From positions 1-54,748 of the forward strand of contig JAQVSV010000004.1 of assembly GCA_028700325.1 (NCBI GenBank): a stretch of DNA of 54,748 nt, read 5' to 3'. The stretch is from Elusimicrobiaceae bacterium. GTDB taxonomy: Bacteria; Elusimicrobiota; Elusimicrobia; Elusimicrobiales; Elusimicrobiaceae. A program made the position numbers and the translations under genes. Positions within the stretch are counted from its first letter, which is position 1; each line of letters begins with the position of its first letter. The notes under the pieces were generated by a model, which did no database searches, had not been told where the DNA came from, and worked only from the letters and a program-made list of their open reading frames with translations. Shown here one piece after another: positions 18,415 to 54,354 of this stretch.

Positions 18415-18444
18415 TTGCCGGGGTGCTGCATTTATTGCTATAAT
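18415..18444 (+). promoter_or_regulatory. promoter of the ComFB-CheY-CheC operon
   Basis: A perfect TATAAT (18439-18444) has an extended TG two bases before it. TTGCCG at 18415-18420 is an acceptable -35 with 18-base spacing. The 5' leader would be about 94 bases, holding GC-rich sequence but no regulator site I recognise. Confidence 0.65.
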
Positions 18445-18544: not shown

Positions 18545-18820
18545 ATGAGCGAACGACGGCGCTTTCACAATTATATGGAAAATCTGGTGGAGGAAGAGTT
18601 GGAGCAGATTCTTTCCGAAAATCCGGATTTTTGTCGTTGCCGGCGGTGTGTAACCGATGTTATGGTGCTCGCGCTCAACCGTTTGCCGGCTAAATACGCC
18701 AGCACTCCGAAAGGTAATATATACGTTAAGCTCAGCACGATGGATCCGCAGCTTGAAACGGACGTGGTGCGCGAGCTTACTATTGCAATTGGAAAAGTTG
18801 CAAAAAATCCTCGGCATTAA
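18545..18820 (+). CDS. ComFB-family protein
   Basis: A 91-residue cytoplasmic protein of the ComFB family. The start at 18545 follows GAGG by about 11 bases. The core motif is HNYMENLVEEELEQIL, then FCRCRRCVTDVMVLALNRLP, with Cys30, Cys32 and Cys35, matching the family pattern of a Cys cluster followed by D-ALALN-LP-Y. Bacillus ComFB has no clear role; ComFB-domain proteins of cyanobacteria have been reported to bind cyclic dinucleotides and to affect motility or competence. It begins a three-gene operon with a CheY-like and a CheC-like protein, so signal integration is the likely job. Confidence 0.8.
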   Translation: MSERRRFHNYMENLVEEELEQILSENPDFCRCRRCVTDVMVLALNRLPAKYASTPKGNIYVKLSTMDPQLETDVVRELTIAIGKVAKNPRH

Positions 18821-18833
18821 AAAGGGAAAACAC

Positions 18834-19217
18834 ATGGCAAGGATTCTGATAGTAGATGACGCTCTGTTTATCCGCAATATCCTTAAAGAAATCGCGCTCC
18901 GCGAGGGTTTTGAAGTCGCGGGAGAGGCGGAAAATGGCCGTGAAGCAGTAGACAAATACCGGCAGCTCAGGCCGGACGTCGTCACTATGGACATAGTGAT
19001 GCCCGACGTGGGCGGGATTGACGGCGGCATTACGGCTTTGCGTGAAATTCTTAAACTGGATCCCAAGGCCAGGGTTATTATGGTGTCGGCCATCGGGCAG
19101 CATACTTTTGTCACCGAGGCGATTAAAGAGGGCGCCAAAGACTTCATTGTCAAACCTTTTCAGCAGAAAAAAGTGGTTGACGCTTTGCGTAAAATTTCCG
19201 AAGATTCCGCGGAATAA
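18834..19217 (+). CDS. CheY-like stand-alone response regulator
   Basis: Single receiver domain of 127 residues from ATG 18834, with AAGGG 8 bases before it. Acidic pocket Asp8/Asp9, phosphoacceptor Asp53 (VTMDIVMP), Thr/Ser switch (MVSA) and Lys107 (FIVKPF) are all present. After the phosphosite it reads DVGGIDGGI, two or three residues longer than the usual loop. No output domain follows, so it acts by protein contact. It lies 13 bases after the ComFB gene and 6 before a CheC-like phosphatase gene, so the phosphatase probably acts on this protein. Its kinase may be the CheA at 46145-48796 or another. Confidence 0.92.
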   Translation: MARILIVDDALFIRNILKEIALREGFEVAGEAENGREAVDKYRQLRPDVVTMDIVMPDVGGIDGGITALREILKLDPKARVIMVSAIGQHTFVTEAIKEGAKDFIVKPFQQKKVVDALRKISEDSAE

Positions 19218-19223
19218 ACAACG

Positions 19224-19841
19224 ATGCCTGACTGCGACGTCAACTACGATTTCATCAACTATAGAAAAATTGATCTTTTGCGCGAGATAGGGACTATCGG
19301 GTCCGGCCGCGCCGCCACCGCTTTCGGCAGGATGATCAGGCACCAGATCGGACTGGCGGTGCCTGAAGTCCGGCTGTACCCGCCGGAAAAACTGCGCGAT
19401 ATCCTCCGCCATCACGGCAGCTATTATGTGCTTGAGGCGGATACGAAAGGCGATATAACCGGCCGGCAGTTTCTGCTTGTTCCCAGCGAGGAGGCCGAAA
19501 AGCTGGGCAGGATAATTCTTACGCAGTTTGCCGGGATTTCCGAGCATAATCTGGAAATGTTCAGGTCGGCGCTGGTGGAAACCGCCAATATCCTGCTCAG
19601 TTCCTACGCCAACGCCGTCAGCATGGTGACGGGTTTTACCGCTATTGTGGGCGTGCCGCGGCTGCATGAGGCGGAAACCGTCGGCTGCTGCGACGTTATC
19701 CTCGCCAAGACGGATGCCGCGTTCATTTATGTGCAGAGTGTGCTGATCGCCAAGCAGCTGAGCGCGGAGTTTTATCTGTTTTTCGTGCCGGACCAGGCAT
19801 CGCTGATAAAAATATTCGACAAACTTGCGCCGGATACCTGA
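19224..19841 (+). CDS. CheC-like CheY phosphatase with one altered active site
   Basis: A 205-residue protein of the CheC/CheX/FliY phosphatase fold. CheC has two pseudo-symmetric E-x-x-N motifs; here the first is EIGT (Glu21-Thr24, in LREIGTIGSGRAATAF) and the second is ETAN (Glu119-Asn122, in ALVETANILLSSY). Only the second site should be fully active. In the family these residues dephosphorylate CheY-P, which fits the CheY-like gene 6 bases upstream. The N-terminal 15 residues are an extra extension. A strong terminator follows. Confidence in the fold is good; the partner is inferred. Confidence 0.82.
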   Translation: MPDCDVNYDFINYRKIDLLREIGTIGSGRAATAFGRMIRHQIGLAVPEVRLYPPEKLRDILRHHGSYYVLEADTKGDITGRQFLLVPSEEAEKLGRIILTQFAGISEHNLEMFRSALVETANILLSSYANAVSMVTGFTAIVGVPRLHEAETVGCCDVILAKTDAAFIYVQSVLIAKQLSAEFYLFFVPDQASLIKIFDKLAPDT

Positions 19842-19869: not shown

Positions 19870-19900
19870 AACGCCGCCAGCTGCGCCGCGGCGTTTTTTT
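19870..19900 (+). terminator. terminator of the ComFB-CheY-CheC operon
   Basis: An 8-pair stem AACGCCGC/GCGGCGTT (19870-19877 with 19888-19895) with a 10-base loop is followed by seven T. It lies 30 bases after the CheC-like stop. Confidence 0.8.
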
Positions 19901-20031: not shown

Positions 20032-21738
20032 TTATTCGGCGGCGGCCAGAGTAAGCACTTCTTCAAGGCTGGTGACACCTTCGCGCACTTTATCCAGCCC
20101 CACGTCAAAAAGAAATCTGTTGCCCTGTTTTTTTGCGGCGGCCTGCAGTTCCGGCAACGCCGCGCCGGTCTGGATAAGCGTGCCGATTTCCGGCGTAATA
20201 TAAATTACTTCATACAGGCCCACCCGGCCTTTGTAACCGAGGCCGTTGCACTGTTCGCAGCCGACGTGGGTATAAAGCGTGTCCGCTTCGCTGAACCCGT
20301 ATTTGGTGATCAGTTCCGGCGTTGGCGAATAGGACTGTTTGCAGTTGGGGCACAGTCTTCTTATAAGGCGCTGCGCCTCCACGACGCGCAGCGTGGCGGA
20401 GAGCAGGAACGGTTCCACGCCCATATCCTTGAGACGGCTGACCGCCGACAGCGCGTCGTTCGTGTGCAGCGTTGACAGCACCAGATGGCCCGTAAGCGCG
20501 GCGCGCAGGCAGATTTCCGCCGTTTCGGCGTCGCGGGTTTCACCCAGCATGATGATGTCGGGGTCTTGCCGCAGGAAGCTCCGCAGCGCGGTCGAAAAAG
20601 TCAGCCCCACCTGCGGTTTCACCTGCACCTGATTGATGCCGTGGAACTTGTATTCCACGGGATCTTCCACCGTCATGATGTTTTTTTCCGGCGAGTTCAA
20701 GAGCATCAGACCGGTATAAAGCGTGGTGGATTTGCCCGAACCGGTCGGGCCCGTCACATATACCAGCCCGTTGGGCGCTTTCAGCCCGCGGATGAAATCG
20801 TCCAGCTGCCGTTTCGCGAAGCCCAGCGCCGAGAAATCCAGCGGGATTTTGGCTTTGTTCAGAATACGCATGACCATCTTTTCGCCGTACACCGTCGGGC
20901 AGGTTGAAACGCGGACGTCAATTTTATTGTCGTTATAGCGCATCGTGAACGAACCGTCGAGCGGAATCCTTTTCTCGGCTATATCGAGCTTGCTTAAAAT
21001 CTTGATGCGGGAAATGAGCGGCACGAAAAGGCTTTTCGGCGGCGGCGGCACTTCGCTCAGAATGCCGTCCACGCGGAACCGGATGCGGATTTCCTCCGCG
21101 TACGGTTCGACGTGAATATCGCTCGCCCGCTGCTGAAGCGATGTTTCAAGCATCTTGTTTACGAACAGCACGACCTGCGTTTCGCGCGTGGCGGGGATGG
21201 GTTTGTTCAGGTCGAGCACATCCTCCTCTTCCTCCTCGTTCACGGCTGATCCGCCGATAAGGCCGCTGGCGAGTTCCTTGACTTCGTCGCGCGCGCCGTA
21301 CAGCGCGTTCAGGCCTTCCTGAATAACCGACATCGTGCTTATCACAAGCGAAACCCTGAGCCCGGTATACAGGTATATTTCCTGCACGATGAATATTTCC
21401 GACGGGTTGAGCACAACGACTTTCAAGGTGTCGTCGGTCCGCTCCAGCGGCACGACCTTGTTGGCGCGGGCGAACCGTTCGGGCAGCAGGCGCGCGAGTT
21501 CGTAGGCGTTCTCGACGTATTTCGTCACTTCTTCGCCGGTAAGATAGGGCAGCTTGAAATAATCGCAGTAGCCGCGCGCAATGTCCTCCTCCGTGGCGGC
21601 CTGCTGGGCGACAAGCGTTTCTTCTATGGAAGTGTTGCTTTTTACCTGCTCGGCTATGATTTTGGCTACGCTCTTCTCGTCCAGAACATTGCGGCTGATC
21701 AGAATGTCGAGTATCAGGGATTTCTCTTCCAGTGGCAT
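20032..21738 (-). CDS. pilB: PilB/GspE-type pilus or secretion motor ATPase
   Basis: Hexameric cytoplasmic ATPase that drives pilin or pseudopilin assembly, 568 residues. The N-terminal MshEN/T2SSE-N region (about 5-150) contains EEDIARGYCDYFKLPYL. The ATPase core has Walker A GPTGSGKST (about 330), the Asp and Walker B boxes in DPDIIMLGETRD, and the His box LSTLHTNDA. Near the C-terminus are two zinc-binding CxxC pairs (CPNC and CEQC) before GYKGRVGLYEVI. PilB and GspE cannot be separated by sequence alone. It is the second gene of an operon, 3 bases after the histidine kinase, which is unusual: no pilM-Q, pilC or pilT is beside it. Confidence 0.93.
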   Translation of the reverse strand: MPLEEKSLILDILISRNVLDEKSVAKIIAEQVKSNTSIEETLVAQQAATEEDIARGYCDYFKLPYLTGEEVTKYVENAYELARLLPERFARANKVVPLERTDDTLKVVVLNPSEIFIVQEIYLYTGLRVSLVISTMSVIQEGLNALYGARDEVKELASGLIGGSAVNEEEEEDVLDLNKPIPATRETQVVLFVNKMLETSLQQRASDIHVEPYAEEIRIRFRVDGILSEVPPPPKSLFVPLISRIKILSKLDIAEKRIPLDGSFTMRYNDNKIDVRVSTCPTVYGEKMVMRILNKAKIPLDFSALGFAKRQLDDFIRGLKAPNGLVYVTGPTGSGKSTTLYTGLMLLNSPEKNIMTVEDPVEYKFHGINQVQVKPQVGLTFSTALRSFLRQDPDIIMLGETRDAETAEICLRAALTGHLVLSTLHTNDALSAVSRLKDMGVEPFLLSATLRVVEAQRLIRRLCPNCKQSYSPTPELITKYGFSEADTLYTHVGCEQCNGLGYKGRVGLYEVIYITPEIGTLIQTGAALPELQAAAKKQGNRFLFDVGLDKVREGVTSLEEVLTLAAAE

Positions 21739-21741
21739 AGT

Positions 21742-24114
21742 TTACGGTGTGCCTGTGGCGCAGGGAAACGTGAGGCGGATCGTGGTGCCCTGGCCCTCAA
21801 CGCTGGACAGCTGGATGTCGCCGCCGTGATTGTTCACTATTGATTTGGATACGGAAAGGCCCAGGCCTGTTCCCATTACCGCGTCCCGGCTGGAGGGTAA
21901 CGGCTGCCCGCCCTGTTCGGCGATCGCGCGATCGTAGATCTTTGTGGTGAAAAAAGGCTCAAAAACACGCGGCATGTTTTCTTTCTTTATGCCGGACCCG
22001 GTGTCGGATATTTCTATGGCACAGCGCGTGTGGCAGGTATTTTTATCGTCCGACACGGCGTATGACCGCACGGTTATTTTCCCGCTTTTTTCTTTCGGTA
22101 TGGCGTGGCACGAGTTTGTGAACAGGTTGACCAGAACCTGCATTATCTGGTTGGTGTCCACTTTTATCAGAAGGCCTTTGGTAAATTCGGTTATGAACGT
22201 GACATTCTGTTTTTCCATCAGCGGAATGTTGCTCCAGGCGTCTTCCACAAGCCGTTCGGGCGGCATAACGGTGCGGCGCGCGTCAGTGGGGCGCGCGAAT
22301 TTCAGCAGGTTTTTCACGATAATGTCGGCCCGCAGCGCGGCGTCTTTCACTTTCGTGAGGGTCAGCACGATATCGAAATCGGAATCTTTGGGGCAAAGCT
22401 CGGGATACGAAAATTCAAGCAGCAGCCGGTTAAGCAGGCGCACGAAATTCATTTCGGAAGGCAACAGTTCCTGCGGCGGCAGTTTCCGGAATTCGGAGGA
22501 GCCCTTTACCATATCCGTGATTTCGGCGGGAATCTTGCTCTGGCCCTGCAGCGGCTCCCAGCGCTCATAAAGCCGGAAATCTTCCAGCGCGCCGTTCAGC
22601 GCGGCGATCGGGTCAGCGCCCGGGGCGACAGGCCCGGCAAGCCCGTCGGCCGCAAGCTGGCGGAAAAGCGCTTCGGCTCCGCCATTTTCAAATTCATGCG
22701 CCCGGAAACCCGGCTCGACCAGATTGCGCATCAGCAGATAATCCGCTCCGCCTATGATAATGCTCAGCGGATTTTTTATTTCATGCGCTATCCCTGATGA
22801 AAAACGGCCCAGCGCCGCCAGTTTCTCGCTCTGTATGAGCTTGTCATGCGCGCTTTTTATTTCGTTGTAGGCGCCGCGCAGTTCGTCCTGCGCCTTGCGC
22901 CGCTCCTCAATCTCGATCTGCAGAAACCGGTTTGTTTTTTCAAGATCCTGATGCTGGTCCACCACCTTTTCCTCCAGCATCTCTTTGGCCTTGCGCAGTT
23001 CCGTTTCCGCGGCTTTAAGCCGGGTGATGTCGTTACCGACGCACAGCACTTCGTACTCGCCCGCGTTGTTCCTGATCGCGCGCAGCGTCCAGGAAATCCA
23101 GGCCTGTTTCCCGCCCTGGCGCGTATTGACATCTTCAACCGAGCTGTAGGTGTCGGGCCTGGCGATAACATTGCGCAGCAGGCTCATAAGCGGCGAGCCC
23201 GGCGCGGTGATCAGGCCCGCCATGTTTTTGCCCGATATGGACTGCGCGCTGAACCCGAAAAATTTCTGGGCGAACTCGTTAAAAAAGTAAACCGTTCCGT
23301 CGGCTGAGGCGCGCAGGATTATGCTGCTGGCGTTTTCGACCAGTATGCGGTATTTTTCTTCGCTTTCGGCAAGCGCGCGCTGGGCGCGCTTGGTTTCGGT
23401 GACGTCCCACATGACCAGCACCGCGCCCGATACTCCGGTCGGCGACATGATCGGCGTCGCGCGCGCTCCCACGGCGGTGATGCCGGTTCCGTTGAATTTG
23501 TCCAGAGTTATGTCGAAAGGCGCTTTTACCGGCCCGAAAGTCTGCATGGCTTTGAAAACCGGATTGGGCAGGATGCTCCTGTCGTGTTCGTTGCGGAAAA
23601 CGCAGACCAGATCAATCCGTTTGCCCACGCAGTCCGTTTTCGGCGCGGACAGCAGCGAACTCGCCGCGTCGTTCATGAACCAGATGGTGCCGGAGGAGTC
23701 GCATACTATGACGGCGTCGCCTATGCTTTGCAATGCGGCCGACCGCCAGGCCTCGTTGCGGAAGCTCTGCACCAGCGACATGGCGTTAGCCAGCCCCGCG
23801 CGCAGCATCTCGGGGGTGAAGCCGGCTGGCAGAACGGAAAGCGGATTGTCTTTGTCATGCGGTGCGGTCTGCTTGCTGGATATGGCCAGTATTCGCCCGC
23901 CATAACCTTCGCAGTATTCTTTCAAGTCCTGAAATTCCGGGATGTTATGATCAACGATAATGATATCGGGCAGGAATTCCTTTGCCGCGAGCAGCGTGTC
24001 TTCCCGGCCCGGTTCCATGGTCGAGATTACGGCGCCCAGCTGTCTTACCGTGCTAATGGCAAGATCCGCCGTGGTGCCGGACAGAAGAATGAAAACCTTT
24101 TTCCCGAAAATCAT
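21742..24114 (-). CDS. PAS sensor histidine kinase with a large DHp insertion
   Basis: Soluble sensor kinase of 790 residues from ATG 24114; an in-frame upstream start is less likely because it lies in the AT-rich promoter region. Order: a degenerate receiver-like domain (about 1-115, with Asp in IIIVDHNIPEF but no acidic pair), two PAS domains (about 125-255 and 260-385), a coiled coil, HisKA with phosphoacceptor His444 (GIAHEIKNPLS), and HATPase with NLFTNSCHAIP, DTGSGI and GTGLGLSVSK. Between His444 and the closing LLKFARP (ending at 609) are about 165 residues, roughly 100 more than normal. There is no membrane segment, so the signal is cytoplasmic. It is co-transcribed with the pilus-type ATPase. 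Confidence 0.9.
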   Translation of the reverse strand: MIFGKKVFILLSGTTADLAISTVRQLGAVISTMEPGREDTLLAAKEFLPDIIIVDHNIPEFQDLKEYCEGYGGRILAISSKQTAPHDKDNPLSVLPAGFTPEMLRAGLANAMSLVQSFRNEAWRSAALQSIGDAVIVCDSSGTIWFMNDAASSLLSAPKTDCVGKRIDLVCVFRNEHDRSILPNPVFKAMQTFGPVKAPFDITLDKFNGTGITAVGARATPIMSPTGVSGAVLVMWDVTETKRAQRALAESEEKYRILVENASSIILRASADGTVYFFNEFAQKFFGFSAQSISGKNMAGLITAPGSPLMSLLRNVIARPDTYSSVEDVNTRQGGKQAWISWTLRAIRNNAGEYEVLCVGNDITRLKAAETELRKAKEMLEEKVVDQHQDLEKTNRFLQIEIEERRKAQDELRGAYNEIKSAHDKLIQSEKLAALGRFSSGIAHEIKNPLSIIIGGADYLLMRNLVEPGFRAHEFENGGAEALFRQLAADGLAGPVAPGADPIAALNGALEDFRLYERWEPLQGQSKIPAEITDMVKGSSEFRKLPPQELLPSEMNFVRLLNRLLLEFSYPELCPKDSDFDIVLTLTKVKDAALRADIIVKNLLKFARPTDARRTVMPPERLVEDAWSNIPLMEKQNVTFITEFTKGLLIKVDTNQIMQVLVNLFTNSCHAIPKEKSGKITVRSYAVSDDKNTCHTRCAIEISDTGSGIKKENMPRVFEPFFTTKIYDRAIAEQGGQPLPSSRDAVMGTGLGLSVSKSIVNNHGGDIQLSSVEGQGTTIRLTFPCATGTP

Positions 24115-24129
24115 AGGATTATCAAAATA

Positions 24130-24146
24130 TATTATATATATTTTGC
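24130..24146 (-). promoter_or_regulatory. candidate promoter of the histidine kinase-pilB operon
   Basis: On the minus strand the AT-rich run contains TATAAT with TTTGCA-like sequence about 16 bases upstream. It would give a leader of about 10 bases without a Shine-Dalgarno. The AT-rich tract allows several registers, so the exact box is uncertain. Confidence 0.35.
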
Positions 24147-24165
24147 ACTTTGCAAACAGCCCCTC

Positions 24166-24194
24166 TGGACAGCCTGTCCGCAATATAAGATAAT
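24166..24194 (+). promoter_or_regulatory. candidate leaderless promoter of the thioredoxin-lipoprotein operon
   Basis: TGGACA (24166-24171) and GATAAT (24189-24194) are 17 bases apart. The transcription start would fall at 24200-24202, where the ATG lies at 24202. No Shine-Dalgarno is seen. GGACA-GCC-TGTCC (24167-24179), a perfect 5-base inverted repeat, overlaps the -35 box and may be an operator. Confidence 0.5.
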
Positions 24195-44634: not shown

Positions 44635-45003
44635 TTATTCTCCGCTCAGGGCATTTTCAATCGCCGCCACCACCCGTTCTTCCTCGAACGGTTTTACGAT
44701 ATAGTCAACGGCGCCCAGCTTGATGGCTTTCATGAGATATTCGCGCTCTTCTATGGCGGTGACCATCACGACGCGGGCGTTCGGATCAACGGCGAGAATT
44801 TCCTCCAGCGCGGCGATCCCGTCCTTGACCGGCATCGTGATATCCATGGTGACGGCGTCAGGCCAGAGTTTTTTGTATTCGTTCACGCCCTCTTCGCCGT
44901 TGGCGCATTCGGCTATCACCTGATAACCGTGCCGGGTCAGAATGTCTTTGAGCATCAGCCGCACTATCGGCGCGTCGTCCACAACTATCAGTCTTTTTGG
45001 CAT
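44635..45003 (-). CDS. cheY: chemotaxis response regulator CheY
   Basis: A 122-residue receiver domain that, when phosphorylated by CheA, would act on the motility motor. Asp9/Asp10, phospho-Asp54 (VTMDITMPVKDGI), Thr switch (MVTA) and Lys in YIVKPFEEE are present. The start follows GGAGGACAA and overlaps the cheC stop by 16 bases. It is the last gene of the long chemotaxis operon. As no flagellar gene is in the window, its target could be a flagellar switch or a type IV pilus motor. Confidence 0.9.
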   Translation of the reverse strand: MPKRLIVVDDAPIVRLMLKDILTRHGYQVIAECANGEEGVNEYKKLWPDAVTMDITMPVKDGIAALEEILAVDPNARVVMVTAIEEREYLMKAIKLGAVDYIVKPFEEERVVAAIENALSGE

Positions 45004-45617
45004 TTGTCCTCCGTATTGCGTTTGTCCGAAATATAATCGAGGAATGTGTCGCAGCTCGTTTTGGGTATCAGGTACATCCGGCACCGCACTCCGCATTCCA
45101 CTAATTTTATCATACATTCAATAATAAGGACTTCGTCGGTCTCGATATCCGCGCTCAGCAGATATTCGGAAAACACGGTGCCTTCGAAATCGGTGACTAC
45201 CTGGGGCGGGGTCGGCTGCATAAGCAGATTGAAGTTTTTTGTGAATACCCCCATGATCGCGCCGGACAGTATGTTGCCCGTTTCCTGCACCGCGCTCAGC
45301 GTCAGCGCGTCAGTCGCCGCGCAGGTTCCCAGCGGCCGGTTCAGCATGAGGTCAGCCAGCTTGAGGCTGTCTTCCTCCACGACGTAAAAAAGCAGCCGGA
45401 AAGTCACGTCGCCCGCCAGATCGAGATACGCGCCCACCACTTTCCGTTCCGAGGAATTGACCCGCTGCGTGGCGATCGTTATGTCTTCGAAACACACCCG
45501 CTCCGCTTCTATTGACGCGCCGTTGTGCAGCAGCCGCTCCAGGCTGAGGGAAGCGCGGTCAATGCTTTCTCTCGCCACAAATTCCATGATCTTGCGGGTT
45601 TCCCTGGTGATCGGCAT
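44988..45617 (-). CDS. cheC: CheC-type CheY-P phosphatase
   Basis: A 209-residue CheC-fold protein. One E-x-x-N active site is clear: Glu112-Asn115 in SAVQETGNILSGAIMG. The first half shows no E-x-x-N motif, so it has a single active site. The flanking cheD gene fits, since CheC and CheD interact in Bacillus and Thermotoga. It overlaps the cheY start. Fold assignment is good; its pairing with CheY is inferred from position. Confidence 0.82.
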   Translation of the reverse strand: MPITRETRKIMEFVARESIDRASLSLERLLHNGASIEAERVCFEDITIATQRVNSSERKVVGAYLDLAGDVTFRLLFYVVEEDSLKLADLMLNRPLGTCAATDALTLSAVQETGNILSGAIMGVFTKNFNLLMQPTPPQVVTDFEGTVFSEYLLSADIETDEVLIIECMIKLVECGVRCRMYLIPKTSCDTFLDYISDKRNTEDKCQKD

Positions 45618-45618
45618 C

Positions 45619-46143
45619 TCAGTAATCCTCCGTGATTTTTTCGTCTATGGCCCGGCATTTCACTATGCCGGATTCCAGCTCGAATTCCAGCCGCAACCCT
45701 TTTTCTCCGCCCGTTCTGCCGGGCAGAATGGTAAGGCCCCGGCCCGCCAGAAGCAATTCCGCCGCGGCGCAGTTTTCCGTTCCGATATCGCGAGACACGT
45801 TCTTGAGGATCCGCCCGCCGCCGAACAGTTTCACCTCCAGCTCTTCCGGCCGGATGCCGCGCGCCATCAGCAGGTTAAACAGCTTCGGGATCCCGGTGAC
45901 CGCGTATTTGGCTTCTTTCAGGCCCTGCCGCTCCAGGCTGGCCAGCACACCGGGCATCATGAAGTGCAGCATCCCGCCGGTTTTTGCAGCCCTGCTGTAC
46001 GCGCAGATGGCGATGCATGAACCGAGCGTGGTCTGCAGCACTTTCGGAGCCGCGGCTATTTTAATGTCCGCCATTCCGACCGTCAGTTTGTTTCCCTCGT
46101 CAGGTTGAGGAGCATGTTCACATTTGAAATTATGGTCTGGCAT
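45619..46143 (-). CDS. cheD: chemoreceptor glutamine deamidase CheD
   Basis: A 174-residue protein that deamidates receptor glutamines and binds CheC. The catalytic Cys is in QTTLGSCIAICAYS and the His in GGMLHFMMPG; VGMADIKIAAAP starts the domain. The first 20 residues are an extra N-terminal tail. It lies 1 base from the cheC and cheA stop/start boundaries, within the operon. Confidence 0.9.
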   Translation of the reverse strand: MPDHNFKCEHAPQPDEGNKLTVGMADIKIAAAPKVLQTTLGSCIAICAYSRAAKTGGMLHFMMPGVLASLERQGLKEAKYAVTGIPKLFNLLMARGIRPEELEVKLFGGGRILKNVSRDIGTENCAAAELLLAGRGLTILPGRTGGEKGLRLEFELESGIVKCRAIDEKITEDY

Positions 46144-46144
46144 G

Positions 46145-48796
46145 TCATTTCCGAACCGAAGAGATTATGTACACCGGATCCAGTATATAAGCCACATTGC
46201 CGTTGCCCAGCACCGACACGCCCGCTATGCCCCTGAGATGCGCGAGGTGCCGGGGCAGGGGTTTTAGAACCAGTTCGTCTTCTCCCAGCATTTTATGCAC
46301 GGCTACGCCCGCTTTGCGCCCGCCGTCGTTCAAGATCGCCACCATCCGCGCGCCCTGTTCGAATTCCGGCACGGGTATGCCCAGCAGAGCCTGTGTATCG
46401 CAGAACGGGAGCAGTTCATCGCGCCGGGCGAAGACAACGCCCTGCTGCGTAGCGCTGAACTGATCTTCGGTCACAAGAGCCGTTTCGTGCACCGAATCTA
46501 TGGGCAGGGCATAGGGGACATTGCTTATCGTGCACAGCAGCGCTTTTATGACCGACAGAGTGAGCGGGATCTTGAGCACAAAAGCGGTGCCGCGCCCCTT
46601 GGCGGTTTCAATGTCAATGCTGCCTTTGATCTGCAGCACCATATTGAGCACCACGTCCATCCCGACGCCGCGGCCGGATATGCCGGTGACTGTTTCCGCG
46701 GTGGAAAAGCCCGGCTTGAAAATCAGGTTGAGTTTGCCGCCGCGGTCAAGCGCGCCGGCTTCGGCTTCGGTGAGCACGCCTTTGCGCACCGCGGCGGCGG
46801 CGATCGCTTCAGGATCCATGCCGCGTCCGTCGTCGCGCACTTCCACGCGGATGCTGCTGCCCATGCGGTAGGCCCGCAGGCAGACTGTGCCGCGCTCGGG
46901 TTTGCCCGCCGCACGCCGCTGTCCGGCGGGTTCAAGCCCGTGGTCCACCGCGTTGCGCACCATGTGGGTGAGCGGCTCGGTGAGGCTGTCAACAATGGTT
47001 TTGTCCAGTTCCGTTTCCTGACCTTCAATTACCAGCGTGACGTCTTTGTCCACGGCTTTTGCCACGTCGCGCACGATCCGCTTGAAACGCGAAAAAATAC
47101 CTTCAATCGCCACCATCCGCGAAGACATCACTCCGGTTTGTATCCTGCCGGAAATTACATTCAGTTCCGACATCAGTCCGTCGAACCGCACCGCTTCCAG
47201 CGCCGCATTCTCCTGCCGTCCCGCGGACAGCGTGTTCACGCATGATTCCAGCTGTTCCGCGCATGCGCGCAGCGTTTCCGCGTCGGGCGCGGGCGAGTCA
47301 AGCGCGTTTTTCAGGGCGGCCATGTGCTCGCGGGCGTGAAAAAGCGCGTCCGACGAGTCGCGGTCCCGGCGGATGTCTTCCGCGAACACTTTCTGGAAAT
47401 TGCTCAGTTTCGAGCGCAGTGTCACCAGCTCGCCGGACAGATCCATCAGCCGGTCGAGCTTGCGCGCGTCCACCCGGATGCCGGCGGCGACAGCGGCCGT
47501 GTTTGTCGCGGCGCTGCCGGTTAGCAGATTCGTGATGTGTTCCTGCGTCAGCTCCTCCACCCCGTCAGTGTTCAGGCCCGACAGTTTAAGCGTGTTTCTT
47601 ATTTCCTCTTCGCCTGCGGCGCAGGAGAAAAGATAGGAGATCGAAACGCCCTGCGTTGTGCTGTCAACTATCGCCGCCGCATCCGGCGCGCAGCAGATGA
47701 CCCGTCCTTTTTTTGAAAGTTTTTTTGCCGCCATTACCGCGTTTATGCTTTTTACCGGCGCCGACCCCGGAATTTCGGCGGTTATCTTGAATATTTTCCG
47801 GCCCAGCGCGATTTCGTCAAGCGCGCTCTTAAGAATGTCCGGCGCAAGCGCAAGCGCGGCCGACGCCTGTGCCGCGGCGGGTTTTTGTTCCGCCGTCACG
47901 CTTGCGCGCGGCGCGCCGGTAACCGCGGCGAACCGGGTGTTAAGCCTGTCAATGAACGCGCCCGCGTCTATCACGCCGGGCGTGCCGGTTTTGTAAAGCT
48001 GCACCATGTCCCGCACCAGATCAATGCCCGCGAAAAGCACGTTCAGGCTTTCGGAGTCGGGGGTTTGCGCGGTTTTGCGGAAGTGCGCGAGCAGATCTTC
48101 CATCGCGTGCGAGGCGCGGGCCAGTTCGGTCGCGCCGATGAAACCGGCGGTGCTTTTAAGATTATGCGCCGCGCGGAACAGTTCGTTTATCAGGTTTTCG
48201 GTGGCAGGAGCCGCTTCACACCGGAGCAGCCCGTCATTAAAAACTTCTATGCCGTGCTCCGCGTCCTCAACGAATTTGGCGAGCATCGCGGGATTAAGCG
48301 GCTGCGGCACGGGTGATTGCTGCGCGGTGCCCGCGGACGGCGCAACCGCGCCCGGCGCCTGCGGCAGCGGCTCCGGCTCTGTTAAAGGCGCAAAGCCGCG
48401 TGCCGAAGCGAATTCGCCGGCGCTGGATTCGTTTAGGGCGGCATAGTCCTTTATAATGCCGTGCAGCCGGTCGTTCATTGCCAGAGCTGTTTCCAGAACG
48501 GCCCGGTCAAACGGTTTTTTTTCCTGCCGGACTTCCGAAAGCAGTTCTTCAAGCGTGTGGCTGGCCTGTTCCAGTTCCGCAAGGCCGGTAAACGCGCCCA
48601 TGCTCTTGATATTGTGCGCGCACCGGAAAATTTCGTTTATTTCCGGCTTGCCCGGCGCCGCGCCGGCTTTCAGCGCGTCTTCCGCCTGCAGCAGTTTGTC
48701 GCTTATGTTTTTGAGATATTGTTCCGCGTCGTTGAAAAACGCCGCGCGGGCGCGGGCGCGTTCGCCCAGCGGCTTGTCATCGAAAAAAATGTTCAT
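46145..48796 (-). CDS. cheA: chemotaxis histidine kinase CheA with two HPt domains
   Basis: Cytoplasmic kinase of the receptor array, 883 residues from ATG 48796, whose ATG overlaps the cheB stop. Two P1-type HPt domains carry phosphoacceptors His61 (RCAHNIKSM) and His211 (RAAHNLKSTAGF). A P2-like region, a P3 dimerisation helix pair, a P4 ATPase domain (NAVDHGLEP, DDGRGMD and GRGVGMDVV) and a C-terminal CheW-like P5 domain follow. Classical CheA has one HPt and about 650 residues; the second HPt is a real extension. It should phosphorylate CheY and CheB of this operon, and perhaps the receiver at 53571. Confidence 0.93.
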   Translation of the reverse strand: MNIFFDDKPLGERARARAAFFNDAEQYLKNISDKLLQAEDALKAGAAPGKPEINEIFRCAHNIKSMGAFTGLAELEQASHTLEELLSEVRQEKKPFDRAVLETALAMNDRLHGIIKDYAALNESSAGEFASARGFAPLTEPEPLPQAPGAVAPSAGTAQQSPVPQPLNPAMLAKFVEDAEHGIEVFNDGLLRCEAAPATENLINELFRAAHNLKSTAGFIGATELARASHAMEDLLAHFRKTAQTPDSESLNVLFAGIDLVRDMVQLYKTGTPGVIDAGAFIDRLNTRFAAVTGAPRASVTAEQKPAAAQASAALALAPDILKSALDEIALGRKIFKITAEIPGSAPVKSINAVMAAKKLSKKGRVICCAPDAAAIVDSTTQGVSISYLFSCAAGEEEIRNTLKLSGLNTDGVEELTQEHITNLLTGSAATNTAAVAAGIRVDARKLDRLMDLSGELVTLRSKLSNFQKVFAEDIRRDRDSSDALFHAREHMAALKNALDSPAPDAETLRACAEQLESCVNTLSAGRQENAALEAVRFDGLMSELNVISGRIQTGVMSSRMVAIEGIFSRFKRIVRDVAKAVDKDVTLVIEGQETELDKTIVDSLTEPLTHMVRNAVDHGLEPAGQRRAAGKPERGTVCLRAYRMGSSIRVEVRDDGRGMDPEAIAAAAVRKGVLTEAEAGALDRGGKLNLIFKPGFSTAETVTGISGRGVGMDVVLNMVLQIKGSIDIETAKGRGTAFVLKIPLTLSVIKALLCTISNVPYALPIDSVHETALVTEDQFSATQQGVVFARRDELLPFCDTQALLGIPVPEFEQGARMVAILNDGGRKAGVAVHKMLGEDELVLKPLPRHLAHLRGIAGVSVLGNGNVAYILDPVYIISSVRK

Positions 48797-49806
48797 TTCG
48801 CGCCGGCTCCGGTTAATTTGCACAGCAGCGGCGTAATGTCTTCCAGCGGGACGGTAATGTCAACCGCGCCTGCCTCCGCCGCCGAATGCGGCATCCCGTA
48901 CACCACGCAGCTTGATTCCGACTGGCCCACCACATACCCGCCCGCGTTATGCAGGCGGACAAGCCCGTCCGTGCCGTCAGAGCCTATCCCGGACAGTATC
49001 ACTCCGACCGCTCTGGCCCCGCAGACTTCCGCCGCCGATTCGAAAATCCCGTCGCATGACGGGCAGAACCGCCGCCGCGGGTTGCAGGCGGAAAGCGCGA
49101 TGGCGTAGCCGTTCGGGGTTTTTCTCAGGCCGCATTCGGTTCCGTGGGGGGACATGTAACAGACTCCATGCCGGAGCGGCTCGTTCTGCTCCGCCAGTTT
49201 CACTTCCAGCCTGGAAATGGAATTGAGCCGGCCGGCGAAGGCCGCCATGAATTCAGCGGGCATGTGCTGAACCCAGACAACCGGCGGCATGTCGGTCGGC
49301 AGCAGCGGAAGGATCCGGCCCGCCGCGTACACTCCGCCCGCCGAGGAGCCGGCGCAGATCACGTCAACCTGCCGCGCGGCGATCTCGAAAGGTTTTCGCT
49401 TCGCCGTCTTTGCGCCCGCGGCGCAGCGCACCGAAGCGACAAGCTCCTGCTCTATCACGGCCGGCGGACGCTGGCCGCCGGCCGGTTTCAAAATAACGTC
49501 ATGCGCGCCCGCCTCGACCGCGCGCAGAGTCTGCACCGCGCCTTCGGGAGTGTACGCGCTGAAAATAATTACCGGAACCGCGCTGTCGCGCCTGATCATT
49601 TCCAGCGCTTCGATTCCGTCCATGACGGGCATTTCGTAATCCATAACGACCGCGTCCGGCTTGAGCCGCCGCACCGCCTCGACCGCCTCAGCCCCGTTTT
49701 CCAGCGCCGCGACGACCGCAATTCCCTGCGCGGTGAAAAGTTCTTCCAGCCTGGCGCGGATGAAAGGCGAATCGTCGGCGATTATTATTCTTATCATGGC
49801 AGTCAT
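48793..49806 (-). CDS. cheB: chemotaxis methylesterase CheB
   Basis: A 337-residue receptor demethylase. The receiver domain has DAVVMDYEMPVMDGIEA; the methylesterase domain has the catalytic Ser (ICAGSSAGG), His (WVQHMPAEF) and Asp (GIGSDGTDG). The start at 49806 overlaps the cheR stop (ATGA); a second ATG three codons later is possible. Phosphorylation by CheA should activate it. Confidence 0.94.
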   Translation of the reverse strand: MTAMIRIIIADDSPFIRARLEELFTAQGIAVVAALENGAEAVEAVRRLKPDAVVMDYEMPVMDGIEALEMIRRDSAVPVIIFSAYTPEGAVQTLRAVEAGAHDVILKPAGGQRPPAVIEQELVASVRCAAGAKTAKRKPFEIAARQVDVICAGSSAGGVYAAGRILPLLPTDMPPVVWVQHMPAEFMAAFAGRLNSISRLEVKLAEQNEPLRHGVCYMSPHGTECGLRKTPNGYAIALSACNPRRRFCPSCDGIFESAAEVCGARAVGVILSGIGSDGTDGLVRLHNAGGYVVGQSESSCVVYGMPHSAAEAGAVDITVPLEDITPLLCKLTGAGAK

Positions 49807-50645
49807 GGCAGCGTTTGCCTCAGCTGTTTGCCGTTTCGCGCGTAAATCCCGAGCTTGAGGTACTGCAAATCGGTTTTGACATCGTTGAGCGTTTCGGACA
49901 GGCTTACGATAAAATAACCGTCCTGTTCCAGCGCGGCGGCGAGATGCCTGACGGCTGTGTTTTTTGAAGTTTTGTCGAAATAGATCATCACGTTGCGCGC
50001 CAGCAGCAGATCTATGCCGCGGAACGGGGCCGGCGCCATCAGATTGTGTTCCCGGAATTTTACGCGCCGGCGGATGGCTTCGTCCAGTTCATAACAGTCC
50101 GGTCTGCTTCCGGCGCGCTTGAACCAGCGCATCTCCGGCTTGTTTTTTATGCGGGAAAGGCTGCGTTCGCTGAACAGTCCGGCTTTGGCGTCGGCCAGCA
50201 CTTCGGTGTTTATGTCAGTCGCGTGGATGCGGAACTGCCAGCCCGGCAGTTTCTCGAAAAACGATTCGAGCAGGATTGCCAGCGTATACGGCTCCTCGCC
50301 GGTCGAACAGGCGGCCGACCAGACGTTCAGTTCCAGCCGGTTCTGCGCCTGCCGCTGTTTTACCAGTTCGGGCAGGATGTTGCGCACAAGGTAGGAGAGC
50401 TGTTCGTCATGCCGGAAGAAAAAAGTTTCGTTGGTGGTCACGGCGTTTATGAATTCTTCCATTTCCGGGCCGCTGTTTTTCAAGAGAAGGAGATACTCGG
50501 CGTAATTGGTTTTTCCGGTTGTTTTGAGGCGGTTTCTCAGCCGGTTGAGGACAAGCGTCCGCTTGGAATCGTTTAGCATGATTCCAGTGCTGGCGTAGAG
50601 CAGTTCGCGTACGGCTTTGAATTCCGAGTCTGATATGTCGCTCAT
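49803..50645 (-). CDS. cheR: chemotaxis methyltransferase CheR
   Basis: A 280-residue SAM-dependent enzyme that methylates receptor glutamates. The N-terminal helical domain (VRELLYASTGIMLNDSK) is followed by the SAM site NVWSAACSTGEEPYTLA and RNVMIYFDK. Length is normal. It lies 1 base after a cheW gene and overlaps cheB. Confidence 0.94.
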   Translation of the reverse strand: MSDISDSEFKAVRELLYASTGIMLNDSKRTLVLNRLRNRLKTTGKTNYAEYLLLLKNSGPEMEEFINAVTTNETFFFRHDEQLSYLVRNILPELVKQRQAQNRLELNVWSAACSTGEEPYTLAILLESFFEKLPGWQFRIHATDINTEVLADAKAGLFSERSLSRIKNKPEMRWFKRAGSRPDCYELDEAIRRRVKFREHNLMAPAPFRGIDLLLARNVMIYFDKTSKNTAVRHLAAALEQDGYFIVSLSETLNDVKTDLQYLKLGIYARNGKQLRQTLP

Positions 50646-50646
50646 T

Positions 50647-51108
50647 TCAGTCCACCGCTTTTAGCAGGTCAAATTCTTCCTTGCTGAAAATTCTGCCCGT
50701 ATCAAGCAGATATGCCGGCTCGCCCGCAATAACGATCGAAGCCAGTATAATGGCGCGGTTTGCGCCGCCCGGAGCGGTTTCCGGCTGGGTGAAATCGCTT
50801 TTGGCGACCGGCGCGACCATTCGCACAAGATCCACCATAAGCCCTATATTCGCGCCGCCCGCCGCGTTAATGATGATAATATGGGTCCCGGCGACCGCCT
50901 GCGGCACGTCCGGAAAATTTCTTCGCAGATTGACTACCGCTATAACGTGTCCGCGCAGGTTCACTATGCCCGACAGCAGTTCCGGGCAGCGCGGCAGCTG
51001 AACCATCCGGCCGGAGTCGAGCACTTCCTGCACGGCGGAGATAGGCACGCAGAGGTTGTGCGGCCCTATCCGGAACACCACGAGGTTTAGCGTTGCCGAG
51101 GCTTTCAC
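50647..51108 (-). CDS. cheW: CheW coupling protein, second copy
   Basis: A 153-residue scaffold linking receptors to CheA. I take the GTG at 51108, which overlaps the previous CheW stop (GTGA); the frame is open upstream but that part lies within the other cheW gene. CheW motifs: LVVFRIGPHNLCVPISAVQE, LSGIVNLRGHVIAVVNLRR and the C-terminal strand AYLLDTGRI. Two cheW genes in tandem suggest alternate arrays or hetero-rings. Confidence 0.88.
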   Translation of the reverse strand: MKASATLNLVVFRIGPHNLCVPISAVQEVLDSGRMVQLPRCPELLSGIVNLRGHVIAVVNLRRNFPDVPQAVAGTHIIIINAAGGANIGLMVDLVRMVAPVAKSDFTQPETAPGGANRAIILASIVIAGEPAYLLDTGRIFSKEEFDLLKAVD

Positions 51109-51590
51109 CGTCCCGCCTCCGCTATAACCGCTATTTCGGCTTCCACGGCGGCCATCATGTCGTCGGGGTTCAGCACCAGTATCATCCGGCTGCCCAGCTG
51201 CACGAAGCCCTGTATGCATTCTTTCCGCACTTCCAGCCGCACGAGCCCTTTTTCCGGAGTTTTTACCGTGTCAATCACGCTGTCGGCTATCACGCAGAAC
51301 GACAGCCCTCCGTAACTGAGTATTATATAAACGTCATCCGTTCCGCCGGCGGGCCGTTCCAGCCGCAGGTACCGGCGGAAATCGAAAACCGGAATGATAT
51401 CGCCGCGCAGGTTTATGATGCCCGGGCAGAACCACGGCATCCGGGGCGCCGGAGTTATGTGAACGGTGTTGAGTATTTCCCGCACCAGCGTTATTTTAAC
51501 CGCATACTGCTGTCCGCCCATGGCGAATACCACGAGCTGGAAATTTACGGAGTTGTGCTGCGCTGGCGCGGCGGTTTCGTCGGCGTTCAC
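51105..51590 (-). CDS. cheW: CheW coupling protein, first copy
   Basis: A 161-residue CheW domain protein (LVVFAMGGQQYAVKITLVRE, CPGIINLRGDIIPVFDFRRY and RMILVLNPDDM). It starts with an ATG that overlaps the PilZ gene stop by 4 bases. The N-terminal 15 residues are an Ala-rich tail. It differs clearly in sequence from the other CheW. Confidence 0.9.
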   Translation of the reverse strand: MNADETAAPAQHNSVNFQLVVFAMGGQQYAVKITLVREILNTVHITPAPRMPWFCPGIINLRGDIIPVFDFRRYLRLERPAGGTDDVYIILSYGGLSFCVIADSVIDTVKTPEKGLVRLEVRKECIQGFVQLGSRMILVLNPDDMMAAVEAEIAVIAEAGR

Positions 51591-51997
51591 CGGTCCTCCG
51601 TCAGCCTGCGGCTTTCGTAACGGGCGAGTTTGTCGAGCGCGAGCTGGTGCCCGTCGTCAACGGCGATGAATTTCACCGCGATCTCGAACCCCTGTCCGTC
51701 GGCGGAACACCGGACGATTTCGCCGACCGCCTGAAACATTTCGGTATCCATTTCCGCGGCCGGCTTGAAAAACTGCGGTTTGCGGTTTTCCCAGTCGGGT
51801 ATGTCAATCCTGACGCGCACCGTTTCGCCGGGCCTGAAGGGCCGGGCGGAATAAAAGAGGAGTCCGCCCGCGCTGATATTGCGCGAGAAGCCTTCGGCGC
51901 CTCCGCCTGACGGCGTTTTCGGGATAGTGTAAATATCGCAGAGCACCGCAAACCGGCCCGGTATTCTTACGAAATTCCGTTTGTCTTCTTCAGGCAT
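51587..51997 (-). CDS. PilZ-domain protein
   Basis: A 136-residue single PilZ domain that should bind cyclic di-GMP. The binding motif RNFVR (Arg7, Arg11) and NISAGG (40-45) are intact. It is embedded in the che operon, overlapping MCP and CheW genes by 8 and 4 bases, so it probably tunes chemosensory output to cyclic di-GMP levels. No diguanylate cyclase lies in the window. Confidence 0.88.
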
Positions 51998-53552
51998 TGG
52001 CGGAGCCGGCCGAAGCGGCTTTTTTTGAAATGTTGAATTGCGACACCAGCCCCGACAGGATTGTGGCCTGCGTGGCCATCTGTTCCGCCGCCGCCGCGAG
52101 CTTCTCGGCGGTGGTGGCGTTGCTTTCGGTGATAGTGGTGTTTTCCTCCATCGCGGCGGCCTGTTCCTGCGTGGAAATGGAAATCTCCTCGATTTCGGAC
52201 GCCAGCCGCGACATGTCCGTGAAAATCACCGCCAGATTCTTGCCGACCGTGGTGGACAGGTTCACGCCCTCCTCCACCTTGCCCAGGCTCGACTGCGACA
52301 GCCCGGTGATATCTTCCGCGGCGATCGCGCTTTTTTCCGCGAGTTTGCGCACTTCGTCGGCCACTACGGCGAACCCCCGGCCGGATTCGCCCGCCCGCGC
52401 CGCCTCGATCGCGGCATTCAGCGCGAGCAGGTTGGTCTGCGCCGCTATGTCGGAGATTATGCGCACCGCCTTGGAAATCTGCGCGAAACGTTTTTCTATC
52501 ACGCTTATGCTCGCCAGCGTGTCTTTCATATTGTTGCCTGCGGCCTTGGCCTTGTTGGCGGTGGACTGGCTCAGTTCGTTTGCGTGTACCGCGTTTGACG
52601 CGTTGGACTGGACCGAGCTCGACAGTTCCTCGAAACTCGCCGACTGCTGCTGCGCGCCTTCCGCGATCTGCTGCGCCGACACTGAAATCTGCCGGGTTGC
52701 CGCCGCCAGCTGGACCGACGTGTTTTTTACCTGCGTGATGATCGCGCTCAGTTTATCCACGAAAGTGTTGAAATGGGCGGCCAGCTGGCCTATTTCGTCG
52801 TTGGAGGCGACGGTTATCCGCTGTGACAGGTCGCCTTCGCCTTTGGATATCTGTTTGAGTATGTCGCGTATCTTTTCAACCGGCCCGACCAGATTGCGGT
52901 TAAGAAAGCCGATGAAGAAAACACCCAGTATCAGCACCATGCCGAGCAGGCCCAGCGTGGAAAGTTTTACCGCGAACATGCCCAGCGTCTGCTCTTTCGC
53001 CACCTGCTGCAGCGTCATCATGTTAAACGAGTTGGAAATCCTGCTCAGCTGCGAGCGCGCGGTGGTGGCTGCGGGAATGACGCGTTCGGTGTAAAGGCGC
53101 ATCGCGCGGGCGCCGTCCCCTTTCCTGGGGTCGGCCGCGGCTATCACTTCGGATGCGGCCTGGTGGATTTTGATGATATTGTCTTCCATTTCCTGAAACC
53201 AGCCCTGCATCTCCGGCGTCAAAGCCGAAAACTCCTGGCTCCGGGAAAACCCGGCGTACCATCTGCCGAAGGTCGTTTCGTTTATATTGGTGCCGGGTTT
53301 GGGGTTTGAAACCGGGTCAAGCATATAATTGGAGATGCTGATCATCCAGGCGTTGAATTCCTCCGATTTGGTGGTTATCATCAGGTTGGTCTTGTCCATC
53401 CTGTTGATGTTTTTCACGGATTCGCTGTAATGCTCGTAGAACGAGATCGAAATGAACGAGCTGACGGACACCATGATCACCAGCGCCGCAAACGCCGTGT
53501 ATAGCTTGATTCTTATGGGCAGGTTTTTGATTTGTTGAAGCATATTCCTCAC
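51990..53552 (-). CDS. methyl-accepting chemotaxis protein
   Basis: A 520-residue membrane receptor. TM1 is [20 protein letters not shown] (about 15-35), then a helical periplasmic bundle to about 185, TM2 ([18 protein letters not shown]), HAMP, and a signalling domain with the tip [20 protein letters not shown]. The C-terminus lacks a CheR-binding pentapeptide. Methylation Glu/Gln pairs flank the tip ([10 protein letters not shown]). The ligand is unknown. It starts 18 bases after a response regulator gene and overlaps the PilZ gene. Confidence 0.93.
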
Positions 53553-53570
53553 AGTCCTTGGCAGTTTTTG

Positions 53571-54008
53571 TCAGGCGCTTTCACCGTGGCGGGAGCCGTC
53601 ATGCCGCAGATCGGGTTTCGGACCCGCCATCAGGAGCTGCGCCTGTTTCAGCAGCTGATCGGGATTTACGGGTTTTAGCATGTAATTGTCGCAGCCGCCC
53701 GTGAAAGAGGCGGCAAATTCTTCCTCATGCGCCGTTATGACTATCACCGGCACACGCAATTCCTCCGCGATGCCGTACAGCTTTTCATAATCCCTTATAT
53801 GGGCCAGCGTTTCCAGCCCGCCCATGACGGGCATCTCTATGTCGAGCAAAACCAGGTCGAACGGCTCTTTTTTTTCAATGGCCTGCGAATACGCGGCAAA
53901 CGCTTCAATCCCGTTTACGGCTATTACGCAGTGCGCTTTCCCAGTGAAAATTTCCGACAGGAAAGACCGGTTCACGAAATTATCTTCCACAATCAGTATC
54001 TTTTTCAT
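53571..54008 (-). CDS. response regulator in the che operon
   Basis: A 145-residue receiver protein with Asp in KKILIVEDNFVNRSF, phospho-Asp in FDLVLLDIEMPVMGG, Thr in VITAHEEEF and Lys in YMLKPVNPDQL. No output domain follows. It lies 4 bases after the HPt gene, so the two may form a phosphorelay pair. The 15-residue C-terminal tail is polar. Confidence 0.9.
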   Translation of the reverse strand: MKKILIVEDNFVNRSFLSEIFTGKAHCVIAVNGIEAFAAYSQAIEKKEPFDLVLLDIEMPVMGGLETLAHIRDYEKLYGIAEELRVPVIVITAHEEEFAASFTGGCDNYMLKPVNPDQLLKQAQLLMAGPKPDLRHDGSRHGESA

Positions 54009-54012
54009 CGGG

Positions 54013-54327
54013 TCAGAGCTTCTCGACCAGCTTGCGCAAAGCGGTCAGTTTTGGCGCGATGGCCGGCAGCTGCTTCCCGGCTTTAATATCTTTCTCCAGC
54101 GCGATAACTCTGGCGTAAATCGGTTCCAGCCGCAAATTCGCCGCCGCGCCTTTCATCGAATGCGCCAGGTCGCCGCCTTCGGCGGTATTGCCGGTTTTTA
54201 CGCACTCCTCCAGCCGGTCGAGCTGGTCCGCTGAGATAGTCTTGAATTTTTCCACCAGTTTGTCATAGATTTCGGCGGGAAGATTGCCCAGCTCCGCCAG
54301 GATTTCCGCTTTTGTTTTGCCTTTCAT
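54013..54327 (-). CDS. histidine phosphotransfer (HPt) protein
   Basis: A 104-residue four-helix HPt protein. The phosphoacceptor is His in GDLAHSMKGAAANLRL. The start at 54327 has GGGAGG about 6 bases before it; a GTG two codons upstream is the alternative. It opens the chemotaxis operon and sits next to a receiver gene, suggesting a relay. An inverted repeat lies upstream. Confidence 0.85.
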   Translation of the reverse strand: MKGKTKAEILAELGNLPAEIYDKLVEKFKTISADQLDRLEECVKTGNTAEGGDLAHSMKGAAANLRLEPIYARVIALEKDIKAGKQLPAIAPKLTALRKLVEKL

Positions 54328-54354
54328 AAACACCCTCCCTATCCCCGTGCAACA

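Follow-up and report, generated by a model that had tools for sequence, protein, structure and literature searches.

The ComFB family is widespread and, to our knowledge, has no established function outside cyanobacteria. In Synechocystis, ComFB binds c-di-AMP and c-di-GMP with micromolar affinity, and cells lacking it show altered piliation (PMC12313861). The cyanobacterial proteins (ComFB/CdgR; Slr1970 and Alr3277; PDB 8hja) are encoded in an operon with hfq, and the ComFB literature cited here reports no linkage to CheR. In Bacillus subtilis, ComFB (PDB 4wai) is encoded in the comF operon with comFA and comFC, coordinates zinc through C25, C27, C30, and C88 (PMC4381287), and has no reported che linkage. 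Control of receptor methylation by a small c-di-GMP receptor is known from MapZ, a PilZ protein of Pseudomonas aeruginosa that inhibits methylation by CheR1 when c-di-GMP is present (PMC6370697), and CheC acts with CheD and CheY in Bacillus and Thermotoga. Here, we report a ComFB gene directly upstream of CheY and CheC genes in an Elusimicrobiaceae bacterium and describe its relatives in two phyla.

The window, i.e., the whole stretch of DNA analyzed, is 54,748 nucleotides long (GenBank assembly GCA_028700325.1, contig JAQVSV010000004.1, positions 1 to 54,748). The triad lies on the plus strand and comprises ComFB (18545 to 18820; 91 amino acids; CxCxxC at C30, C32, and C35; C-terminal His91; Pfam PF10719, 91.8 bits, cutoff 25), a CheY-type single receiver (18834 to 19217; 127 amino acids; Response_reg, 95.1 bits, cutoff 30.2), and a CheC-type phosphatase (19224 to 19841; 205 amino acids; PF04509, 26.5 bits, cutoff 22). 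Spacers of 13 bases (18821 to 18833) and 6 bases (19218 to 19223) separate the genes, so sequence, open reading frames, and Pfam bear out this part of the original prediction, as they do for the terminator, found 3′ of CheC (19870 to 19900, plus strand; 8-bp stem and T run). Its arms, AACGCCGC (19870 to 19877) and GCGGCGTT (19888 to 19895), followed by the T run, were read from the sequence, the scanner giving a shorter match. The triad had also been credited with its own extended −10 promoter. A promoter-like site (18415 to 18444, plus strand) does lie 100 bases upstream of ComFB, with a weak −35 (TTGCCG), an 18-base spacer, and a perfect extended −10 (TGCTATAAT; TATAAT at 18439 to 18444), but two such sites were counted around the triad against 1.8 expected from shuffles, which is no excess and leaves a plausible candidate. 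The window gave no match to any Rfam element, and thus the triad is preceded by no known riboswitch.

Downstream and convergent with the triad, as predicted, is a gene for a PilB-type ATPase with an MshEN domain (20032 to 21738, minus strand; T2SSE, 451 bits; MshEN, 54.7 bits), which has a separate terminator of its own, and then one for a PAS-PAS histidine kinase (Pfam; 21742 to 24183, minus strand). The surroundings of ComFB are DUF6588, CheY, CheC, PilB, and the kinase, with no comFA, comFC, or hfq among the neighbors. The adjoining PilB gene, the family name, and the role of the cyanobacterial protein in piliation and transformation (PMC12313861) would suit a competence or DNA-uptake protein whose association with che genes merely follows from the clustering of pilus genes. 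We consider this very unlikely: elsewhere ComFB sits within che operons and forms fusions with CheR (see below), and deletion of comFB in B. subtilis leaves transformation unaffected (PMC4381287).

ComFB was surveyed in 60 relatives and then in 295 genomes of Elusimicrobiota, of which only two carry it, the source genome and G003, which belongs to the same family but to a different genus. The gene order in G003 is ComFB-CheY-CheC-CheC, convergent with PilB of the MshEN type (locus L010, 2431 to 4137) and the same PAS histidine kinase neighbor (121 to 2400). Identities between window and G003 are 47% for ComFB, 62% for CheY, and 40% for CheC, the last with the second G003 CheC gene (31% with the other). 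Because the order recurs in a different genus, the triad is not a chance arrangement; the conserved adjacency that had been anticipated is found in both ComFB-bearing genomes of the phylum sample, as is the larger module of a receptor-family ComFB with chemotaxis output proteins adjoining a pilus ATPase. Divergent from ComFB in G003 are a gene for an Hpt protein and then one for a receiver, homologs of which lie at 53571 to 54333 in the window.

That position is the head of a chemosensory cluster (44988 to 54333, minus strand) 25 to 35 kb from the triad. The response regulator and Hpt protein (53571 to 54333) are followed by an MCP (methyl-accepting chemotaxis protein; 51990 to 53552), a PilZ-domain protein (51587 to 51997; Pfam, 38.2 bits), two CheW proteins (51105 to 51590 and 50647 to 51219, the start of the latter being uncertain), CheR (49803 to 50645), CheB (48793 to 49806), CheA (46145 to 48823), CheD (45619 to 46143), and a CheC/CheX-like protein with no Pfam match that lies between CheD and receivers (44988 to 45617). 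This CheA is the sole CheA-type (H-kinase_dim) match in the genome. Among 22 family genomes searched for both proteins, the two that carry CheA are the two that carry ComFB. CheA also occurs in two genomes of a sister family that have no ComFB; thus a che system does not require ComFB. Rather than the isolated phosphatase module originally envisaged, the triad looks like part of a chemosensory system, a piece detached from the che operon.

An undivided version occurs in another phylum. A CheC alignment scanned against about 85,000 species genomes returned loci of Candidatus Omnitrophota, and all seven of the CheC-found loci with enough upstream sequence (eight loci in all) have the order ComFB-CheR-CheY-CheD-CheB-CheC, mostly with CheW next. 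This order minus CheR, CheD, and CheB is the triad, and the window has those three in its separate che cluster. An intermediate arrangement, CheA-ComFB-CheY-CheD-CheB-CheC without CheR, is present in genome G484. When 285 Omnitrophota genomes were surveyed independently with the Pfam HMM, 31 of them proved to have ComFB, at 56 places in all, each counted once, although many loci are related and the counts are not independent events: 21 CheR fusions, 21 genes directly 5′ of cheR, 3 in other che contexts, and 11 without a che neighbor. ComFB is thus fused to or immediately 5′ of CheR in 42 of 56 places. In the fusions, ComFB forms the N terminus of CheR, with a linker of about ten residues; Pfam recognized ComFB, CheR_N, and CheR in five fusions examined, one ComFB falling just under the cutoff (22 versus 25 bits).

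Gene fusion is the strongest computational indication of physical partnership, and the ComFB-CheR fusions indicate CheR as the partner of ComFB. The original prediction had ComFB bind a cyclic dinucleotide and directly set the activity of CheC or CheY. Such a role would fit both Elusimicrobiota genomes, where ComFB adjoins CheY and CheC without CheR, an Omnitrophota cluster (L046/L092) with ComFB before CheY and no CheR, and the position of CheC directly 5′ of several fusions and of two standalone ComFBs. Yet not one ComFB-CheC or ComFB-CheY fusion was seen among the 56 Omnitrophota places, against 21 with CheR, and most Omnitrophota operons put CheR between ComFB and CheY, and CheD and CheB between CheY and CheC. 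The recurrent partner being CheR, direct control of CheC or CheY appears decidedly unlikely. The target of ComFB is likely CheR, on which it would serve as a second-messenger (or zinc/redox) adaptor of receptor methylation. Against this stand the 11 of 56 Omnitrophota places without a che neighbor and the source genome itself, where ComFB is not adjacent to CheR.

Several of the fusions (L067, L069, L070, L071, L079, L091, and others) lie right behind a CheC gene, and several fusion genes are near genes for an RNA pseudouridine synthase and LGT. A second CheR after the fusion (L073, 2849 to 3874; L074, 4107 to 5183) has a faintly ComFB-like N-terminal extension, possibly a decayed ComFB domain. 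A receiver-HD protein of the HD-GYP type (L093, 4927 to 7260) is encoded near ComFB outside a che cluster. In both phyla, a PilZ-domain gene lies within the che cluster or closes it (window, 51587 to 51997; L085, 14690 to 15013; L092, 2175 to 2474).

The window ComFB shares its Pfam family and LNxLPxxY motif with the cyanobacterial proteins. Standalone che-type ComFBs retain D38, L44, N45, and Y51; fusion domains mostly keep L44 and Y51 and have N45 of the LN motif replaced, and with N45 lost these domains may bind ligand differently. CxCxxC, absent from 8hja over the aligned region, is shared by che-type ComFBs and the B. subtilis protein: it was counted in 21/21 fusions and 16/20 CheR-adjacent standalone ComFBs, accompanied by a His near the domain end that is also missing from the four standalone ComFBs without the Cys motif. 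The window protein has all three Cys, and the position of the fourth Cys in B. subtilis is taken by this conserved His. Given the zinc ligands C25, C27, C30, and C88 of B. subtilis ComFB, a C3H zinc site is likely in che-type ComFB in place of the four-Cys site, as predicted from these alignments.

In the ComFB tree, the window protein falls on the che-type side, and a split with bootstrap 90 and SH-aLRT 100, under the program’s star threshold, sets it off from the main non-che group. Omnitrophota ComFBs without che neighbors mostly form a separate group that lacks these cysteines. The AlphaFold (AF2) model of the window ComFB was poor (pLDDT 63), and Foldseek with this low-confidence model gave no significant fold match, the best being B. 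subtilis ComFB. ComFB-based scans of viral contigs gave no matches. A ComFB gene on a Deferribacter megaplasmid (L005, 3980 to 4267) lies upstream of a type IA topoisomerase gene, not of che genes.

The cysteines raise the question of what is sensed. ComFB might respond to zinc or redox state and act on CheR, with no cyclic dinucleotide involved, a sensing role raised in the 2015 structure paper (PMC4381287). The near-constant CxCxxC of CheR-linked ComFBs and the paired loss of Cys motif and C-terminal His, the latter near the fourth ligand C88, are in keeping with it. However, the published ligand work gave cyclic dinucleotides (PMC12313861), the PilZ and MshEN domains encoded in these neighborhoods point to c-di-GMP, and the four ComFBs that lost the site are a small related group, maybe one event. 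We regard a purely zinc or redox signal as unlikely.

For a cyclic dinucleotide signal, the source genome encodes two GGDEF proteins, of which one retains an intact GGDE, and no DAC domain (c-di-AMP cyclase) was detected in it; c-di-GMP is therefore a likelier ligand than c-di-AMP in this organism. The predicted cyclic-dinucleotide link survives in so far as a second-messenger-type receptor family is joined to chemotaxis proteins, whereas its c-di-AMP variant is unlikely here. Across the family, the preference for c-di-GMP is weakened by DAC domains in most Omnitrophota genomes tested (6/8); GGDEF was present in 9/9 genomes tested.

FliM (PF02154) was not detected in the source genome (99.3% complete) or in the relatives searched, and nine further genomes gave one match, below the cutoff. 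The source genome has 11 matches to T2SSE (type IV pilus/type II secretion ATPase). In Omnitrophota, a PilB-MshEN gene overlaps a ComFB-CheR fusion gene (G541; L083, 1308 to 4053), minor pilins adjoin another fusion (G304), and PilC-PilM-PilO genes precede a fusion plus complete che cluster with PilZ last (G298). With no FliM detected, the output is likelier to be type IV pili than flagella, a reading taken from gene neighborhoods. A pilus link is known for ComFB of Synechocystis.

We therefore propose, as a marginally probable reading, that the triad is a detached piece of a che operon in which a c-di-GMP-sensing ComFB adaptor modulates CheR, with type IV pili as output. CheA, MCP, CheW, CheR, CheB, and CheD from the distant cluster would belong to a system that does not drive an ordinary flagellum, and CheY and CheC of the triad would provide output and signal termination. 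ComFB would be a dimeric, probably zinc-stabilized adaptor sensing an intracellular signal, for which we infer c-di-GMP as the most likely ligand. On sensing the signal, ComFB would alter, by direct action, the activity of the methyltransferase CheR, encoded in trans in the window, making receptor sensitivity, and through it CheY-P, track the second-messenger level. The type IV pilus machinery would be the likely end target. A more general statement, that che-type ComFB is a hitherto undescribed chemosensory component, a zinc-containing, c-di-GMP-gated domain docked on or fused to CheR through which the second messenger sets receptor adaptation in systems steering type IV pili rather than flagella, and that it arose independently of MapZ, is made more tentatively and falls somewhat short of even confidence.

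MapZ would be a works-like analogue, as a small c-di-GMP receptor acting on CheR (PMC6370697). It differs in being a separate protein of flagellar chemotaxis with a PilZ domain unrelated to ComFB; the window ComFB is a PF10719 protein without PilZ, and its link to CheR comes from gene fusion and adjacency in Omnitrophota. Among open-access papers, we found none on ComFB together with CheR or with chemotaxis; the search did not extend to preprints, subscription journals, supplements, or domain-architecture databases, where an earlier mention may exist. Second-messenger control of a chemosensory system via an adaptor is known; as far as our searches reach, the ComFB family in that role is new. 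In two groups of uncultured bacteria, ComFB thus recurs as a member of chemotaxis-like signaling clusters. The natural fusions give it a named partner enzyme whose activity is easily assayed and suggest a second, independent wiring of an intracellular messenger into receptor adaptation. The results also indicate that Elusimicrobiota and Omnitrophota, two phyla whose physiology has seen little experimental work, have chemosensory systems for which no flagellar switch was detected.

CheY and CheC of the window are nearest Thermotoga maritima among solved structures and share CheD with the Bacillus/Thermotoga systems. They differ in that the Bacillota CheC loci fetched (L026 to L035) have no ComFB, and the window system has no detected FliM and a CheC with one phosphatase site. 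The window CheC (E = 4e−15 to T. maritima CheC 1xkr) keeps the second site (S115xxxE119xxN122); at the first, E21xxT24, the Asn is lost in the alignment. It is thus a CheC by profile with one [DS]xxxExxN site, not of the type with two intact sites. Independent cases of first-site loss are the window, G003, and G484, the loss in L018 to L035 being partly built in by a scan pattern that contained GTI. The window CheY has the acid pocket, phospho-Asp, Thr/Ser, and Lys (D8, D9, D53, S85, and K107), and its nearest solved relative is T. maritima CheY (153 bits), relative to which it has a 4-residue insertion after MPDVGGIDGG, directly behind the MPxx loop next to the phospho-Asp. That the insertion is specific to the triad was ruled out, since Omnitrophota CheYs share a 3-residue version. 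These proteins form a CheY subfamily with extra residues (MPKxEEIDG) by the phosphorylation site, four in Elusimicrobiota and three in Omnitrophota.
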